From NCBI RefSeq assembly GCF_900166655.1, contig NZ_FVZB01000007.1:744001-808000 (forward strand): DNA of 64,000 nt. The letters are read 5' to 3'. Positions 9,561-61,911 of this stretch are shown one piece after another; the first letter of the stretch is position 1; every line of letters starts with the position of its first letter. The translations under genes were made by a program, and so were the position numbers. This stretch comes from Halobacillus hunanensis. Its GTDB lineage: Bacteria; Bacillota; Bacilli; Bacillales; Halobacillaceae. The notes under the pieces are model-generated. The model was not told the origin of the DNA. It saw only the letters and a list, made by a program, of their open reading frames with translations, and searched no databases.

Positions 9561-9573
9561 TGTAGTAAGATTG

Positions 9574-9604
9574 AAAAAGCGGGAGTTATTCCCGCTTTTT
9601 CTGT
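9574..9604 (+). terminator. rpsO intrinsic terminator
   Basis: AAAAAGCGGGA (9574-9584) / TCCCGCTTTTT (9590-9600), loop GTTAT, T-run. Confidence 0.88.
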
Positions 9605-9685
9605 ATGTTTACATACAGTAGGGTGTAAACTCTAAAGAGTAGGCACTATTTTTAATTTATTGTTTTGAGAGGAGTAAAGTGCTTT

Positions 9686-11801
<2,116 letters not shown>

Positions 11802-17973: not shown

Positions 17974-18130
17974 GCCCACAGGATGTGGGTAGTTCAGTGT
18001 TGGCACATGCCCCACAGGATGTGGGGTAGTTCGGTGTTGGCACAGGACGTGCCGCTCTTAACCGAACTTCCTTGATGCCGAACTTAGTCGAACTTCCATT
18101 AATCCCGCTCTTAACCGAACTTCCTTAACC
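17974..18130. repeat. Array of GTTCGGTGTTGG / CCGAACTTCCTT stem-loop repeats
   Basis: The best-kept unit (18029-18073) has outer arms GTTCGGT/ACCGAAC and an inner stem GGCAC/GTGCC around AGGAC. A CCCACAGGATGTGGG hairpin precedes it and occurs twice (17974-17990 and 18008-18026). Partial units follow: CCGAACTTAGTCGAACTTCC and CGCTCTTAACCGAACTTCCTTAA. The array takes the place where rnjB lies in B. subtilis. No coding content. Confidence 0.7.
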
Positions 18131-51889: not shown

Positions 51890-51999
51890 TACGAATTGTA
51901 CATTATTCTTCAATGTGAATAAATGAGTTATACGAAAAGTATATTTTTGTGTTGACATATACGAATTGGAGAATTATTATATAAGTATATTCTTCGTTT
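51890..51999. promoter_or_regulatory. Divergent operator/promoter region of the element
   Basis: Rightward promoter: TTGACA (51952-51957), 17 bp, TATTAT (51975-51980). Three same-direction TACGAA motifs at 51890, 51931 and 51960; the second lies in a palindrome TATACGAAAAGTATA (51929-51943) and the third in the promoter spacer. A fourth inverted site TTCGTT follows near 51993. TACAAT on the minus strand (51897-51902) may be the repressor -10. Confidence 0.7.
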
Positions 52000-54411: not shown

Positions 54412-54645
54412 ATGGGGAAATGGAAAAAACATTTCGCATTTTATGACATTTCATCTCAAGCCGATAACATCAAAACCTTTGAGGGAAAGGTATATGATGT
54501 ACATGGCCTGTGGGCCGTTGATAACGAGGGCCATTATGAAAAATTGGCGAATATTTATTATCGCATCCGAACCGTAAAGGATAAAAAGTTTAGAACGATT
54601 GCAAAACGTCGAAACCCTAAAAGTGACCTGAAACAAGTCTTATAA
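54412..54645 (+). CDS. Small basic protein ahead of the transfer operon (candidate antitermination factor)
   Basis: 77 residues, Lys/Arg-rich C-terminus (KDKKFRTIAKRRNPKSDLK) after a beta-rich aromatic N-terminal half (KHFAFYDISSQADNIKTF). Strong RBS GAGGAGGGG. I do not recognise a domain by sequence. It lies just before a 420-nt structured region with a boxA-like motif, the place where the conAn system of Gram-positive conjugative elements encodes its small antitermination protein. The functional link is inference. Confidence 0.55.
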   Translation: MGKWKKHFAFYDISSQADNIKTFEGKVYDVHGLWAVDNEGHYEKLANIYYRIRTVKDKKFRTIAKRRNPKSDLKQVL

Positions 54646-55149
54646 TATATAACATTTTAACACGTGCTTAAATTAGAGCACACTTTGACCTTTGAAAACT
54701 ACATATCTATGCTAGGGATGGAACGGTCACGGGACATCCTAGCAGTTGGATGATTGTTCGGTGCGTGGTACGTGAAATGCATCTAGTGACTTAGTATGCG
54801 TTGTATTGATGATGTTGGCTCTTAGAAGAGGAGGTGAAATTCCGACGAAATCTTCAAAGAGTAAACCTAAATACATAAAGTTCTTCGTATATGCTAGAAA
54901 CGTTGTGCATTGCAGAGCCTCTTGAAATATTCATGATGCAGTCTGCATAGGGTTTGATTGTATCCAGCCATAAACAATCACTTATCATGAAAAAACAGGT
55001 TCAATAAATCCTGAAAGTCTGGTGATTGATCTAGCTTTTATGCTTTAGAATGAATGAAAGGATGGTTCCACGTTTTTTCCATAACGTGGATTTTTATTTG
55101 AGTAGGTGTTAGAATCGTTATACGAACCACTCAAGAAGGGATTGATCTG
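54646..55149 (+). ncRNA. Structured non-coding region, candidate antitermination RNA (conAn2-like)
   Basis: 504 bp without a believable gene. It begins with GACCTTTGAAAACT (54687-54700), close to the Bacillus rRNA boxA. Stem-loops follow: GCTAGGGATG/CATCCTAGC (54711-54742), ATGCA/TGCAT (about 54937-54949), TGATTGT/ACAATCA (54955-54980) and CAGG/CCTG (54997-55014). A strong terminator (55068-55099) comes last. Transcribed together with the transfer genes it would precede all of them. Confidence 0.5.
55068..55099 (+). terminator. Intrinsic terminator before the first transfer gene
   Basis: CCACGTT (55068-55074) / AACGTGG (55083-55089), then ATTTTTATTT. In the middle of the presumed long operon. 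Confidence 0.8.
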
Positions 55150-55584
55150 ATGAAAAGACGTTGGATCGGTGGTTTGGCTGGATTAATATTGGCCTTTATC
55201 CTTGCAGGTTGTGGAGCCACAGGTCAAGTCGAGTCTTTATCACCAGAGGAAATGAAAGATTATATCAAACAAAATGATACAGCTTATGTGTTAATTAACA
55301 GTACTGAAGATGAAGAAGAAAGAAGAGCTAATATTGAGCTTGTCGAACAACATATTGAATCTATCAATGTGAAGGAAATTAATTCTCAGTCATCTAAGAT
55401 GATAGAAAGTAATTTAAAGTTGAAGGATCTGGGTTTAAAAAATATCCAATTTGGAACACTAGGTTTTTATAAAGAAGGGACATTGAAAGAGTATGTTTCT
55501 CTACGAAATGCAGATCATCCTTCGGAAGCAGAAAAGGAAAAAGCACTTAAAAAATTTATAGATGAAACATCATCCCAAGGGTGA
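55150..55584 (+). CDS. Lipoprotein of the transfer region
   Basis: 144 residues; lipoprotein signal peptide with FILAGCGAT lipobox (Cys about 21). The mature part is charged and may have a thioredoxin-like layout (TAYVLINSTEDEEERRANIE) but without a CxxC. Surface lipoproteins are common first genes of Gram-positive transfer operons. Enclosed by terminators on both sides. RBS GAAGGGATTG. Confidence 0.75.
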   Translation: MKRRWIGGLAGLILAFILAGCGATGQVESLSPEEMKDYIKQNDTAYVLINSTEDEEERRANIELVEQHIESINVKEINSQSSKMIESNLKLKDLGLKNIQFGTLGFYKEGTLKEYVSLRNADHPSEAEKEKALKKFIDETSSQG

Positions 55585-55587
55585 AAA

Positions 55588-55619
55588 GAAGTGATCTTTT
55601 ATAGATCGCTTCTTTTTTT
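55588..55619 (+). terminator. Intrinsic terminator inside the transfer operon
   Basis: GAAGTGATC (55588-55596) / GATCGCTTC (55604-55612), loop TTTTATA, then seven T residues. No promoter is evident between it and the next gene. Confidence 0.88.
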
Positions 55620-55651: not shown

Positions 55652-55849
55652 ATGGGTGCAACGAACCGCGAAGTTAAACAATCGAAAGATCTTGTTCAAA
55701 CACTCTTACAAGTTCAAGACCTTTCTTACAACGACTGGATTCATGAGAAACATCAGGAATACATTCGGGAGAATCAAGATGTTGTGATGGAGTCTTTGAT
55801 GCAGTACAAGGAATTGAAGAATGAGAGAGACTACAAAAATTCATATTAA
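55652..55849 (+). CDS. Small hypothetical transfer-region protein
   Basis: 65 residues, polar and helical (REVKQSKDLVQTLLQVQDLS), no membrane segment. RBS GAAGGAGGTGA. Unknown function; kept because of the strong RBS and tight spacing in the operon. Confidence 0.7.
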   Translation: MGATNREVKQSKDLVQTLLQVQDLSYNDWIHEKHQEYIRENQDVVMESLMQYKELKNERDYKNSY

Positions 55850-57272: not shown

Positions 57273-59798
57273 TTGAAATCGTTCATCGCTAAAAGGCAGG
57301 TGCTTATTCCACTAAGCATCTGTTTTTTTATAACGATCATGATAGGATCCACATTTATTTTGAACGTGGGATTTGCCATGTGGGCCACTGTTCAGACATT
57401 CCCGCAGTTTAGCCAACCACTCGTAATTAAGACAATTTATCTAACAGATTTTCATATTCAAGAATATCCGTGGTTTTACGCTATAACAGCTCTGATTGGT
57501 TTGTTGAGCATTGCGTATATCATCTATAAACTACGCAGTAATTTTCAACCCATTGGAACGGATGAAAAAGGATCTCAGCGTTTTGCAACACGAAAGGAAA
57601 TCAAACAACAATACAAGGCAATTCCCGACAGAGGGCAAACTTACCCGGGTCAAGGAGGTCCTGTGTTAGCCCGGAAAAAGAATAGGGCTTACATTGATCC
57701 ATCGTCCGTTAATAACTTGATTATCGGAACAACGCGAAGTGGTAAAGGGCAAACCTATGTGATTCCCACGATTGATGCGTATTCCCGTGCCGAAGACCAG
57801 CCTTCCTTAGTCATCAATGATCCCAAAGGGGAACTATTCGCCTCAAGTCGGAAAACACTGGAGAATCGAGGCTATGAAGTGGAAGTGCTCAATTTGATGA
57901 ATCCGATGCAAAGCATGAGCTTTAACCTTTTGGAACTCGTTAAACAATCTTACCAGGATGGGGATTATTCAACAGCCCAAACGCTCTGTGAAACGATCAC
58001 CCATATGTTGTATCACAATCCTCAAGCAAAAGAACCTATGTGGGATGATTCTGCCAAGTCACTTGTGAATGCGATGATCCTCGCAATTACCGAAAAAAGT
58101 ATCACCGAAGGAACCGAGGAAAAAATCACCATGTACACGGTGGCCAACATGCTGTCTGAACTGGGGACGCAAAATGAAGTTGATGAAAATGGCCAGGAAG
58201 TTAATGCGCTCGATCAATACTTTCAAAAGTTGCCGCAGGCGCATGTTGCCAAAGAACAATATGCAACGAGTAATTTTTCCAAAGGGAATACACGTTCCAG
58301 CATCTTTACAACGGCCATGAATGGCTTGACGAAGTTTACTATGAGTGAAACAGCTAAGATGACAGCGAAGAACTCATTAGATCTGAAAAAGGTAGGCTTT
58401 GGTCAATCGATAAAAGGCCGTGGGACACCGTTTTCCAAAGTGTATGTTACTTTCCCCGACGGTGCAACTGAAGTCAATCAATCGGGGGAGAGTGGCACCT
58501 GGACGATTAATTTCTCCTCCAGGTTGAAACCAGGAGACACCCTTACGATATCGCAAGATGATGAGCCGTTAACCACGAAACAAAAACGAAAAAGAACTAA
58601 AGGGCAATATGAAGAAAAAGAATGGAGACAGCTCAAGGTTCAAGTAAAAGAAATGGATGAGAAGTCTGGGGAGGTTTACATTGCCTTCCCATCTGGTTCC
58701 ATTCCAAACCTAACAGTCGATCAAATTAGTTATTTTACTAAACCGATCGCCCTTTTCATGGTCACACCGGACTATGATACATCGACACACGCAATCCCAT
58801 CGATTTTCGTGAGTCAGTTATATTATGTGTTATCGAAAAATGCAGCGATTGCCAAAGGACAAAAGTGCTTGCGAGAAGTCGTGTTTGTATTGGACGAGTT
58901 TGGTAATATGCCAGCTATTGCGGATATGGGCAATAAGGTTACAGTTTGCCTGGGGCGAAACATTCGTTTTCACCTCGTTGTTCAGTCCTACGCGCAATTA
59001 AAAGAATTGTATGGAGAAGATGGACAGGCAACCATCCGTGGAAACTGTGGGAATGAGATTTATATTTTGAGTGCGGATTATGATTCCGCATCTTATTTTT
59101 CTTCCAAACTTGGTAAGCAGACCCTAAATACGCAAACGCGGTCGGGCTCAACCTTTTCGCTCGATAAATCAAAAACCGAAAGTACCGAAGGGCGAGATCT
59201 CTTAACCGCCAATGAACTGCAAGAGTTAGAAGAAGGAGACACTGTAGTACGTCGTGTATTAAAACGTCGAGATATGAGAGGACGGAAAATAAGAGCTTTT
59301 CCCATTTACAATACGGGCAAACACAGTATGAAATATGCACATACGTATTTGAGTCAGGATTTTGATACAACTAAGGCAATTACGGAAGAGGAGATTGATA
59401 CACCTCATCGTAACGTTCAACCACAAGATTTAGTGATCGATTTTACTTCGACATCAATAGCTGAAAAGGAAAGACGATGGAAGGCTTCCAAAGAGGATAA
59501 TAGCGAACATCAACCATTTCATAAAGAAGCATGGAAGCAACAAAAGGTTGGTCAGTTTTTCGATGCTGTTACGCTTCACATGATTCAAGAGCATATTGCT
59601 CCTCAGCTGGAGCACAGTGAGGAAGAGATGAATGAAGAGCTGTTGGAGGTTTTTATATACAATTTGAAAATGCTAGGGGAAGGACAGGAAATCAGTCGGC
59701 AAGTTTATGGCCATATTCGTAAACAAATCGATAAATTAAGTCAGGAACAAGAAACGCTAGATATGGAGAAAAGGAAGAAGCCGAATTATAACTTATAA
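57273..59798 (+). CDS. virD4: VirD4/TraG-type coupling ATPase
   Basis: 841 residues. Two membrane helices (about 11-40 and 66-86), P-loop GTTRSGKGQ at 152-160, conserved INDPKGELF at 181-189, Walker B FVLDEFGNMP near 540 and C-terminal AAD region. It couples the relaxase-DNA complex to the channel. Residues 382-480 hold an insertion that reads like a bacterial Ig-like domain (VYVTFPDGATEV, GTWTINFSS, LKPGDTLTISQDD) between the motor motifs. TTG 57273 behind AGGGGG. Confidence 0.93.
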   Translation: MKSFIAKRQVLIPLSICFFITIMIGSTFILNVGFAMWATVQTFPQFSQPLVIKTIYLTDFHIQEYPWFYAITALIGLLSIAYIIYKLRSNFQPIGTDEKGSQRFATRKEIKQQYKAIPDRGQTYPGQGGPVLARKKNRAYIDPSSVNNLIIGTTRSGKGQTYVIPTIDAYSRAEDQPSLVINDPKGELFASSRKTLENRGYEVEVLNLMNPMQSMSFNLLELVKQSYQDGDYSTAQTLCETITHMLYHNPQAKEPMWDDSAKSLVNAMILAITEKSITEGTEEKITMYTVANMLSELGTQNEVDENGQEVNALDQYFQKLPQAHVAKEQYATSNFSKGNTRSSIFTTAMNGLTKFTMSETAKMTAKNSLDLKKVGFGQSIKGRGTPFSKVYVTFPDGATEVNQSGESGTWTINFSSRLKPGDTLTISQDDEPLTTKQKRKRTKGQYEEKEWRQLKVQVKEMDEKSGEVYIAFPSGSIPNLTVDQISYFTKPIALFMVTPDYDTSTHAIPSIFVSQLYYVLSKNAAIAKGQKCLREVVFVLDEFGNMPAIADMGNKVTVCLGRNIRFHLVVQSYAQLKELYGEDGQATIRGNCGNEIYILSADYDSASYFSSKLGKQTLNTQTRSGSTFSLDKSKTESTEGRDLLTANELQELEEGDTVVRRVLKRRDMRGRKIRAFPIYNTGKHSMKYAHTYLSQDFDTTKAITEEEIDTPHRNVQPQDLVIDFTSTSIAEKERRWKASKEDNSEHQPFHKEAWKQQKVGQFFDAVTLHMIQEHIAPQLEHSEEEMNEELLEVFIYNLKMLGEGQEISRQVYGHIRKQIDKLSQEQETLDMEKRKKPNYNL

Positions 59799-60018: not shown

Positions 60019-61911
60019 ATGTCAGATGAAGAACTATTAGAGAAACTGCTTCAATTTTCGGAGGTCCTCCATACAAACAATATATTCAGTTCTGGACTCC
60101 GACTCATGGGATGGGTGATTATTCTTTTCCTAAAAAAGATTGTGGATGGTTTAGAAGGTATGGTCAATAATGTGTTAATATTGACGGATTTCTTTAGAAG
60201 CGAACCTGTTCAATCGTTTCTAAATACGATTCAACCAGTCCTGTATATATTACTAGCTTTTTCATTAGCTATGATTGGGTTTAGATTGATTTTCAATAAA
60301 GAAAAAAATCGGGCAGAAATCCCCATGAACATTTTTATATCAGTTATGACCATAACTCTCTTGACATTTGGGATGGGAAAAGTCGATGAATTTACTGAGA
60401 ATGCGATCGATGTTGCCCAGGTTAATCAAGACTCCTTTACGACCTCAGATCGCGTCATTATGGATTATATTACAGATGTTGCCATATATGACGAAACAGG
60501 GTGGCAAACTCCAAAGGTGGAGGAATCCATCCTCATAAATCCGGATAACATTGATAAAATTTCAATTAATGAAACTATTACTAAAGAGTTTGAAAAGGCA
60601 AACGGGGAGCAATTATCAGAACAAGGGAAAAAAATAGTTATGAACAAAGTTGGTTTAGAATCAAACGGAGAAGAAGGTCTAGTCGCATTGGGTAAAAGTA
60701 GTCTATTTGACTTTTTGCCTGAACATTATTATCGCTGGGATGTAGAATGGGTTTCGGCGATTGTGACACTTGGGGTTATGGCTTTTACAATGGTTCTCAT
60801 TTCGATTAAGGTGGCGAAACTTTGTTTCGAACTTGGATTTAATCATATTGTTGCGCTTATTATGGCGTATGCTGACATTTCTACCGGTCAGAGATTGAAG
60901 GAGATTATTAAAAACGTTGGCAGCATATTCGTTTCACTGATTATGATTTTTTTAAGTTTACGTGTCTATATGTATTACACCACCTTTATAAGTGACAACT
61001 TAGAAGGCGTAGGCTATTTAGTAGCCTTGGTGGCTGGCAGTTTGGCTGTGATCGATGGACCAAACATTGTCCAAAAACTCTTTGGTATCGATGCTGGATT
61101 AAAAAATGCCTGGCATGTAGCCATGGGCGGTTATTTGGCATCGAAAACCATTGGTCCACCAGCAAAGAAAGCTGTTGGAACTGTAGCTAGTGGAGGAACT
61201 AGTTCGGTCATGCATTCAGGAGCTAGTGTAGCTGGGGCCCTTGCAGGGTTGGCCGGTAGTAAAGGAAAAGGGTCAGCTCAAAATAATGAAAAGCCTAGTC
61301 CCATTCAAGGGGCAATAGGAAGAGACACAGGAGAGAAACTTGATCAAAAATCTGGAATTACTCCGTCCAATAGGGGCCCTGAACAACAGCCTCAGCCCTT
61401 ACAGAAAAACAACCAAAGTCCACAAACGGGTGGAGATTCTTCAATTCCACGGAATCAAGAACAACAGTCGGACTATGTATCTAGTGGCTCCATTCCTTCT
61501 ATTCATGAAGAAATGCGAGGAGAGCGAAAGCAACAATCACCGAATACTAGACCAAAACCTCGTTTACATGAGGAAATGAAAAAAGGTAATCGACAAGTGG
61601 CAGCTTCAACAGAAGTAAAGAAGTCAGTAGATCAACGATCGAATGAGATGCCACTCGTTGACCAGGGGCAGGAAAGTAAACAAGCATCACATGGAGATCA
61701 ATCAAAAGCACCCACAAGTACTGATGATATTCCTATGCCGAATCAGCATCGCACCGAACAGCGTACCATGGGTCAATATATGAAAGATCGAATGAAGGAA
61801 CGATTTAACAACCATCACAAGGTTCAGAGGGCCAAACGCACCTATAACCTATCACGCAATACAACAGAAAACTGGAGACGTAACATTCAAAAACGCGAGC
61901 GAGGCTCTTAA
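60019..61911 (+). CDS. VirB6/TrbL-like polytopic membrane protein
   Basis: 630 residues: six or so membrane helices (about 30-50, 75-97, 102-120, 240-285, 300-322, 328-346), then a long Ser/Gln/Pro-rich tail (365-630). This is the plan of TrbL/VirB6 channel proteins of Gram-positive T4SS. The tail has two similar motifs, PSIHEEMRGER and PRLHEEMKKGNR, and a basic end (RAKRTYNLSRNTTENWRR). RBS ATAGGAGTGAG. Confidence 0.8.
   Translation: MSDEELLEKLLQFSEVLHTNNIFSSGLRLMGWVIILFLKKIVDGLEGMVNNVLILTDFFRSEPVQSFLNTIQPVLYILLAFSLAMIGFRLIFNKEKNRAEIPMNIFISVMTITLLTFGMGKVDEFTENAIDVAQVNQDSFTTSDRVIMDYITDVAIYDETGWQTPKVEESILINPDNIDKISINETITKEFEKANGEQLSEQGKKIVMNKVGLESNGEEGLVALGKSSLFDFLPEHYYRWDVEWVSAIVTLGVMAFTMVLISIKVAKLCFELGFNHIVALIMAYADISTGQRLKEIIKNVGSIFVSLIMIFLSLRVYMYYTTFISDNLEGVGYLVALVAGSLAVIDGPNIVQKLFGIDAGLKNAWHVAMGGYLASKTIGPPAKKAVGTVASGGTSSVMHSGASVAGALAGLAGSKGKGSAQNNEKPSPIQGAIGRDTGEKLDQKSGITPSNRGPEQQPQPLQKNNQSPQTGGDSSIPRNQEQQSDYVSSGSIPSIHEEMRGERKQQSPNTRPKPRLHEEMKKGNRQVAASTEVKKSVDQRSNEMPLVDQGQESKQASHGDQSKAPTSTDDIPMPNQHRTEQRTMGQYMKDRMKERFNNHHKVQRAKRTYNLSRNTTENWRRNIQKRERGS

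Follow-up and report, generated by a model that had tools for sequence, protein, structure and literature searches.

The question raised by this locus is how RNA polymerase might read through the stop signals of a conjugative transfer operon. In the 64,000-nt stretch of Halobacillus hunanensis DNA analyzed here (the window), a small open reading frame and a noncoding stretch precede the transfer genes, a layout for which a preliminary description had proposed a processive antitermination module like conAn of plasmid pLS20, whose function is as summarized in PMC8955417. That lead was right in kind. The module is of the conAn kind, a boxA-bearing variant carried on an ICE, and the locus very probably serves as a conAn-type processive antitermination module of that element, in which the gene of a 77-aa protein and a folded RNA probably let the polymerase read through the terminators of the transfer operon.

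A ConAn1-like protein upstream of the transfer genes

The first component is the protein gene.

54412..54645, + strand: ConAn1-like protein, 77 aa (open reading frame; hhalign to pLS20 ConAn1; AlphaFold2 model)

The 77-codon frame noted earlier is present, and a protein search of 199 related genomes found homologues in 22 of them, at 29 places. Aligned to pLS20 ConAn1 with hhalign, the protein gave a Prob of 92.7; when the open reading frames were ranked, it scored 91.6, with the other 231 at 2.7 or below. The profile comparison that had been suggested thus found homology, and the 77-aa protein is a homologue of pLS20 ConAn1. A ConAn1-type protein is indicated both by hhalign and by BLASTP of pLS20 ConAn1 against the L047 protein (E 7e-5, three subject sequences compared). 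The AlphaFold2 model has a mean pLDDT of 90.6.

The named relatives come from Halobacillus, Thalassobacillus, and Sediminibacillus and, more distantly, from Bacillus, Ornithinibacillus, Cytobacillus, and Pallidibacillus, 16 loci in total. By tblastn, the protein is tied to Bacillus plasmids, one of them a pLS20-like plasmid of B. pumilus. Related protein-RNA pairs occur on ICEs of halophiles, on plasmids of Priestia, Bacillus, Planococcus, and Exiguobacterium, and on pTEF1. On plasmids of Lysinibacillus, Planococcus, and Exiguobacterium (L087, L089, L090, and L091), the ConAn1-like domain is fused to an N-terminal helix-turn-helix domain. Genome G008 holds the protein-RNA module in three copies (L003, L023, and L029), so that it probably contains three related elements.

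A conserved, covarying RNA follows the protein gene

Behind the protein gene lies a structured RNA with the following elements.

54649..55121, + strand: conAn2-like structured RNA, whole (alignments, profile, covariation, GU versus AC counts)
54649..54663, + strand: P1a, 5' arm of the closing helix (covariation helix 1)
54665..54670, + strand: P1b, 5' arm (covariation helix 1, columns 21-26)
54690..54700, + strand: boxA-like CTTTGAAAACT, unpaired in the structure used (rRNA-leader core; 0/2000 shuffles)
54711..54743, + strand: P3 hairpin, 54711-54719 with 54736-54743 (helix 3; 6/9 pairs with two-sided changes, 87.7% paired)
54725..54730, + strand: pseudoknot strand GGTCAC in the P3 loop (helix 4; 99.1% paired, 2/6 pairs two-sided)
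54760..54783, + strand: P4 hairpin, 54760-54766 with 54777-54783 (helix 5; 1/7 pairs two-sided)
54786..54791, + strand: pseudoknot partner GTGACT (helix 4)
54802..54875, + strand: P5 with insert, 54802-54807 with 54870-54875 (helix 6; 3/6 pairs two-sided)
54880..54909, + strand: P6, GTTCTTCGTATATGCTAGAAACGTTGTGCA, the hairpin of highest conservation (pattern at 16 places in 15/397 genomes)
54911..54947, + strand: P7 hairpin (helix 8; 4/6 pairs two-sided)
54956..54979, + strand: P8 hairpin, GATTGT/ACAATC with a GCCATAA loop (helix 9; 3/6 pairs two-sided, 88% paired)
55099..55104, + strand: P1b, 3' arm (covariation analysis)
55106..55121, + strand: P1a, 3' arm, GTGTTAGAATCGTTAT (covariation analysis)

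The noncoding stretch recognized earlier does extend to 55149, but the RNA begins not at the boxA-like motif, as had been proposed, but at the 5' arm of the closing helix (54649), and it ends at about 55121. It is thus about 475 nt in size, with a long-range closing helix and a covarying pseudoknot inside.

Comparative evidence for this RNA is stronger than its folding energy relative to shuffles (z -2.45, with 2 of 100 shuffles equally good). The RNA is conserved in relatives, a point on which the preliminary description had let its reading depend: 20 close loci are alignable across its entire length. A profile of these loci, which necessarily matches its own 20 sources, also matches L018 from end to end (E 6e-20); in L021, L026, and L027 the match is confined to a core stretch (E 0.001-0.0024). 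It had no match at E <= 10 in 5 of the 29 loci (L017, L019, L020, L022, and L028), among which L022 is likely a false hit within a long frame and L019, in genome G013, is a broken copy whose ConAn1-like gene is a relic with internal stops.

The consensus of a 19-sequence alignment comprised 90 pairs, 29 of them with two-sided changes. A 72-pair structure including the pseudoknot, written from one sequence (Halobacillus alkaliphilus), was tested on an 18-sequence alignment that adds the Bacillus and Priestia types; 96.3% of cells were paired and 27 pairs showed two-sided changes, and none of 500 shuffles matched either value, in a comparison where related rows can outscore shuffles even without structure. 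For further pair types, 49 of 500 shuffles in the same test reached the observed number. Slid controls were paired in at most 43.9%, the reference structure being favored over slid versions in that it was drawn from one alignment row.

P1 comprises 22 pairs, formed in 98.2% of cells of the 18-sequence alignment. Of 18 sequences tested singly, 11 had a best long-range helix that no shuffle out of 100 equaled; in the other seven it was reached by 48 shuffles (window), 2 (L065), 29 (Bvel), 17 (Virgi), 66 (L047), 90 (L021), and 14 (canT). Taken alone, P1 of the window, with one G fewer in the P1a 5' arm than its relatives have, is therefore not above shuffles. The best long-range helix of L065 is not P1, and no acceptable P1 helix was found in L047, L021, or L065. 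By inspection, the pseudoknot GGTCAC/GTGACC has changed to GATCAC/GTGATC in Priestia (L052 and L053), and its arms are swapped in Exiguobacterium (GTGACC/GGTCAC). P6 is without covariation evidence because its helix, helix 7, shows no two-sided change.

A ConAn1-like protein is encoded upstream, in the same direction, at all 16 places with the P6 pattern, 7 of which are absent from the 29 loci of the protein search. At the Watson-Crick positions of the reference row, the other rows hold 68 GU cells and 14 AC cells, and since GU cells exceed AC cells, the molecule is indicated to be an RNA of the + strand. These two results bear on whether the conserved hairpins might instead function as DNA, as an oriT or a single-strand origin. 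Structured origins of both kinds are common on conjugative elements, and a MobL relaxase gene does lie downstream of the module, but some 13 kb from it; with the GU excess fitting + strand RNA and with position and direction behind the ConAn1-like gene fixed at the 16 places checked, a DNA origin is most improbable.

Relation of the RNA to pLS20

The preferred reading, a conAn2-type RNA, was followed with R1, a covariance model of P6-P8 from 17 sequences, run on 25 sources (315 kb). R1 found four close RNAs at E <= 1.5e-12, among which L018 and L081 are also sequences of the model. Four further matches (Planococcus, L017, pTEF1, and B. pumilus; E 0.004-0.018) each fall in a gap that follows a ConAn1-like gene, on the same strand as that gene, and the three remaining matches (E 0.68 upward) are elsewhere. 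At E <= 1, R1 had no match in pLS20 itself, in B. subtilis, B. velezensis, Virgibacillus, Lysinibacillus, or two Exiguobacterium plasmid gaps, or in the gaps of L044, L045, and L046. In these last three, distant ConAn1-like genes precede a short gap RNA, some 200 nt in size, in which inspection shows a P6-like motif; no convincing closing helix was found in them.

The gap RNAs of B. pumilus and pLS20 match each other in blastn (best piece, 81.6% over 76 nt; E 9e-14), and the tie of the RNA to pLS20 runs through this B. pumilus intermediate. The covariance comparison with conAn2 that had been called for thus gave a covarying fold and a path by way of B. pumilus. A relation to conAn, earlier suggested from layout, is demonstrated for the protein by hhalign and for the RNA through intermediates, by covariation, covariance model, and blastn.

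A conAn2-type RNA accordingly adjoins the protein gene, with the qualification that R1 leaves pLS20 unmatched and that the place of conAn2 on pLS20 is itself a probable one. Gene 28 of pLS20 is given as the first gene (PMC8014075) and gene 29 as ses (PMC6635565), and the surface-exclusion gene is placed in a pair beginning at the "third gene" (PMC8955417). Because gene 28 is first, gene 29 is ses, and the pLS20 record has no gene between them, conAn2 is probably the gap after gene 28. The assignment is no more than probable because strong folding is seen in the 462-nt leader preceding gene 28 as well (-106 kcal/mol, versus -112 for the gap). The leader (L048:2101-2563, between Pc and gene 28) has a terminator-like hairpin immediately before the gene.

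The boxA-like segment

The boxA-like segment lies between P1 and P3, toward the RNA 5' side. Its 11-mer is identical to the core situated about 170 nt ahead of both 16S genes found in the same genome, so that the nascent RNA would carry an exact rRNA-type boxA core. Among the 20 close loci, the core reads TTGAAAA in 19 and TTGACAA in 1. When 16 conAn2-type RNAs were scored, the 11-mer was exact in 2, within one mismatch in 4, and within two mismatches in 8; the other half, that of pLS20 included, had at least three. L017 has two mismatches and pTEF1 three. The observed match arose in 0 of 2000 shuffles for the RNA of the window, where it is exact, and likewise in 0 of 2000 for that of B. arachidis, and it was reached by 31 of 2000 shuffles in B. 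velezensis and 32 of 2000 in Virgibacillus. For the five RNAs with two mismatches, 90 to 345 of 2000 shuffles were as good, two mismatches being common by chance. The boxA is therefore real in the window and in part of the family and is absent or degenerate elsewhere. Of the boxA/Nus proposal in the preliminary description, an exact, unpaired, positionally conserved motif stands, but not one that the whole family shares.

There is a little less than an even chance that the segment is a promoter, or a mere part of the RNA fold, rather than a Nus site. The sequence TTGACC-17-TATGCT (54685, 9/12) overlaps it, the conserved text extends past boxA into ACATAT, and half of the scored RNAs have no good boxA match. 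By inspection, however, L053, L050, and L085 retain TTGAAAA but not the -35/-10 pattern, and both rRNA leaders found carry the exact 11-nt core.

Terminators, promoters, and the transfer operon

Two T-tract hairpins, ending at about 55091 and 55614, flank the first gene behind the RNA.

55067..55099, + strand: terminator-like hairpin within the RNA, unconserved (2/19 loci, window included)
55150..55584, + strand: small lipoprotein gene, lipobox-like LAGC (sequence)
55583..55617, + strand: intrinsic terminator behind the lipoprotein gene (19/19 loci, window included)
57273..59798, + strand: VirD4-like coupling protein, CD1115 family, downstream operon (family search)
60019..61911, + strand: pLS20_p028-family transmembrane protein, downstream operon (family search, E 1.2e-119)

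Both hairpins, which had been described as two terminators, are present, but they differ in standing. The same predictor was applied to both in 19 of the close loci, window included; it found the second in every locus and the first, by this one predictor, only in the window and L029. The first hairpin is inside the RNA, because the RNA runs to about 55121. Its nearness to the RNA 3' end is what would favor a cis attenuator or riboswitch controlling the lipoprotein gene alone. Such an attenuator is very improbable, since the hairpin is predicted in so few loci and is enclosed by P1 (22 pairs, 98.2% of cells), since Rfam gave no family at threshold in the RNA stretch and only scattered weak matches at E <= 10, and since a ConAn1-like protein precedes the RNA pattern at 16 of 16 places. 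Elsewhere in the window, Rfam matches are rliD and Bacillaceae-1 RNA, at 9573-9866 (- strand) and 18011-18077 (- strand).

For the conAn-type reading, terminators further along also count. Over 54412-81400, an interval whose end was our choice, terminator-like sites numbered 13 sense versus 3 antisense (one-sided binomial p 0.011), several of the 13 lying within coding sequence and one being the hairpin inside the RNA; over the whole scan (49000-96000), there were 21 sense and 6 antisense. Several intrinsic terminators inside the operon are thus predicted.

The best promoter candidate is at 51952 (11/12 matches). The module, placed earlier at the head of the operon, is indeed upstream of the T4SS genes, but four codirectional genes stand between it and this candidate. 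No promoter-like site was found on the + strand from 54713 to the scan end at 55700, in agreement with the earlier statement that none follows 55619; the scan says little either way because it gave fewer sites than shuffles did (8 versus 13.6).

The lipoprotein gene, for which no family match above cutoff was found, stands where pLS20 has its surface-exclusion gene, a position that suggests a corresponding role. Downstream genes encode a CD1115-family VirD4, p028, DUF5592, a VirB4-like ATPase, a lysozyme/M23 protein, MobL, an ArdC/M78 protein, Toprim, and a type I restriction system. This set resembles that of pLS20 as far as Toprim, the kinship resting on the CD1115-family VirD4, p028, DUF5592, the MobL relaxase, and Toprim. 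The type I restriction-modification system that the element carries beyond its transfer genes is at L082:17780-19468 and L083:25-3917.

TraE of pTEF1

Searched in NCBIfam, the ConAn1-like proteins of the window, L053, and L086 gave weak matches to TraE_Enteroc (E 3.5e-4 to 7.6e-3), well short of its cutoff. Scored against a 23-sequence profile, TraE of pTEF1 reached a Prob of 93.1, the next best other open reading frame 1.3 (154 entries from bases 1-50000 of 66320, TraE entered twice). BLASTP of pTEF1 TraE against pLS20 ConAn1 was not significant (E 2.7). On the profile evidence, pTEF1 TraE is a ConAn1 homologue. At L093:13236-14173 (- strand), this pAD1-type TraE is followed by a structured gap of 581 nt, and then by a 101-aa open reading frame and sea1. 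Within the gap, a closing helix of 21 bp (equaled in 0 of 100 shuffles) occurs together with the P8 motif and an R1 match (E 0.017).

TraE1 is described in a review as promoting transcription of conjugative genes (PMC7117660), and the title of a 1993 paper calls it a positive regulator. A limited literature search that included PMC7117660 found no tie of TraE1 to antitermination. We offer, as a tentative and rather unlikely generalization, that one machine, a ConAn1-like protein with a P1-closed pseudoknotted RNA, might drive transfer operons across Bacilli, those of enterococcal pheromone plasmids included; that TraE1 might be an antitermination processivity factor; and that one branch, as well as the unrelated canT, might have taken the host rRNA boxA for Nus factors. 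TraE1, an activator long without a mechanism, would thereby gain a testable one.

Proposed mechanism

The homology of the protein and the structure of the RNA are observed properties of the module, from which we infer antitermination, a processivity role for the ConAn1-like protein, and a link to Nus factors. Transcription would start upstream, probably at the promoter-like site at 51952, and the polymerase would transcribe first the 77-codon ConAn1-like gene and next the RNA region. As it emerges, the RNA would fold compactly, with helix P1 closing it and the P3-loop pseudoknot within, a structure supported by covariation. By homology with pLS20, the RNA may confer terminator resistance on the polymerase, and the small protein may maintain the processivity of the modified complex, which would pass the conserved terminator at 55614 and further terminators in the transfer operon. 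Polymerases initiating within the operon would halt at the first terminator. In the lineage of the window, the boxA-like segment may add recruitment of NusB/S10. The covariation-backed model, with its closing helix, loop pseudoknot, and boxA-like segment, names targets for mutation.

Comparison with known systems

In ICE Tn916, canT is a cis RNA of about 450 nt required for passing terminators; it needs no other Tn916 gene, and its active fragment, 452 bp, lies 126 to 577 bp past the stop of orf8; shorter active fragments are described as well (PMC11658703). We read Tn916 from pCF10 (L030), where the gene annotated as helix-turn-helix was taken to be orf8. The 452-bp fragment starts inside an exact boxA CTTTGAAAACT, of which it keeps the last 9 of 11 bases, and 1 of 2000 shuffles was as good. 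This Tn916-like element thus has an exact rRNA-type boxA at the start of the canT fragment (L030:41628-42090, - strand). The two canT mutants described lie further downstream, away from boxA, and the word "boxA" does not occur in the main text of that paper (PMC11658703). Like the RNA of the window, canT is an ICE cis RNA of comparable size with the exact boxA core in its region; unlike canT, the RNA here has a dedicated protein. A relation in sequence or structure was not found, R1 having no match in L030 at E <= 1, and boxA alone is shared.

With rRNA boxA antitermination, the locus shares the exact core of its own rRNA leaders, unpaired near the RNA 5' side; here, in contrast, the core lies within a large RNA that comes with a dedicated protein, and it is not family-wide. 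With pTEF1 TraE (the pAD1-type TraE1 positive regulator), it shares a ConAn1 homologue and an RNA-like gap that holds a closing helix as well as an R1 match, but that protein is 118 aa, its gap RNA is diverged, with three mismatches to boxA, and its host is an enterococcal pheromone plasmid.

The closest comparison is pLS20 conAn. Both systems have a homologous small protein encoded upstream of homologous transfer genes and a gap RNA after the protein gene with a long closing helix (0 of 100 shuffles in pLS20), and by inspection the pLS20 RNA has a loop-downstream pseudoknot candidate and a P6-like GAGTTC..TGCTACAAAC. In contrast, the protein is 172 aa in pLS20 and 77 aa here, the P1-closed RNA is about 280 nt there and about 475 nt here, and the boxA-like segment belongs to the present locus. 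Here, too, the carrier is a chromosomal element with four other genes ahead of the module, which places conAn-type control on a chromosomal ICE.
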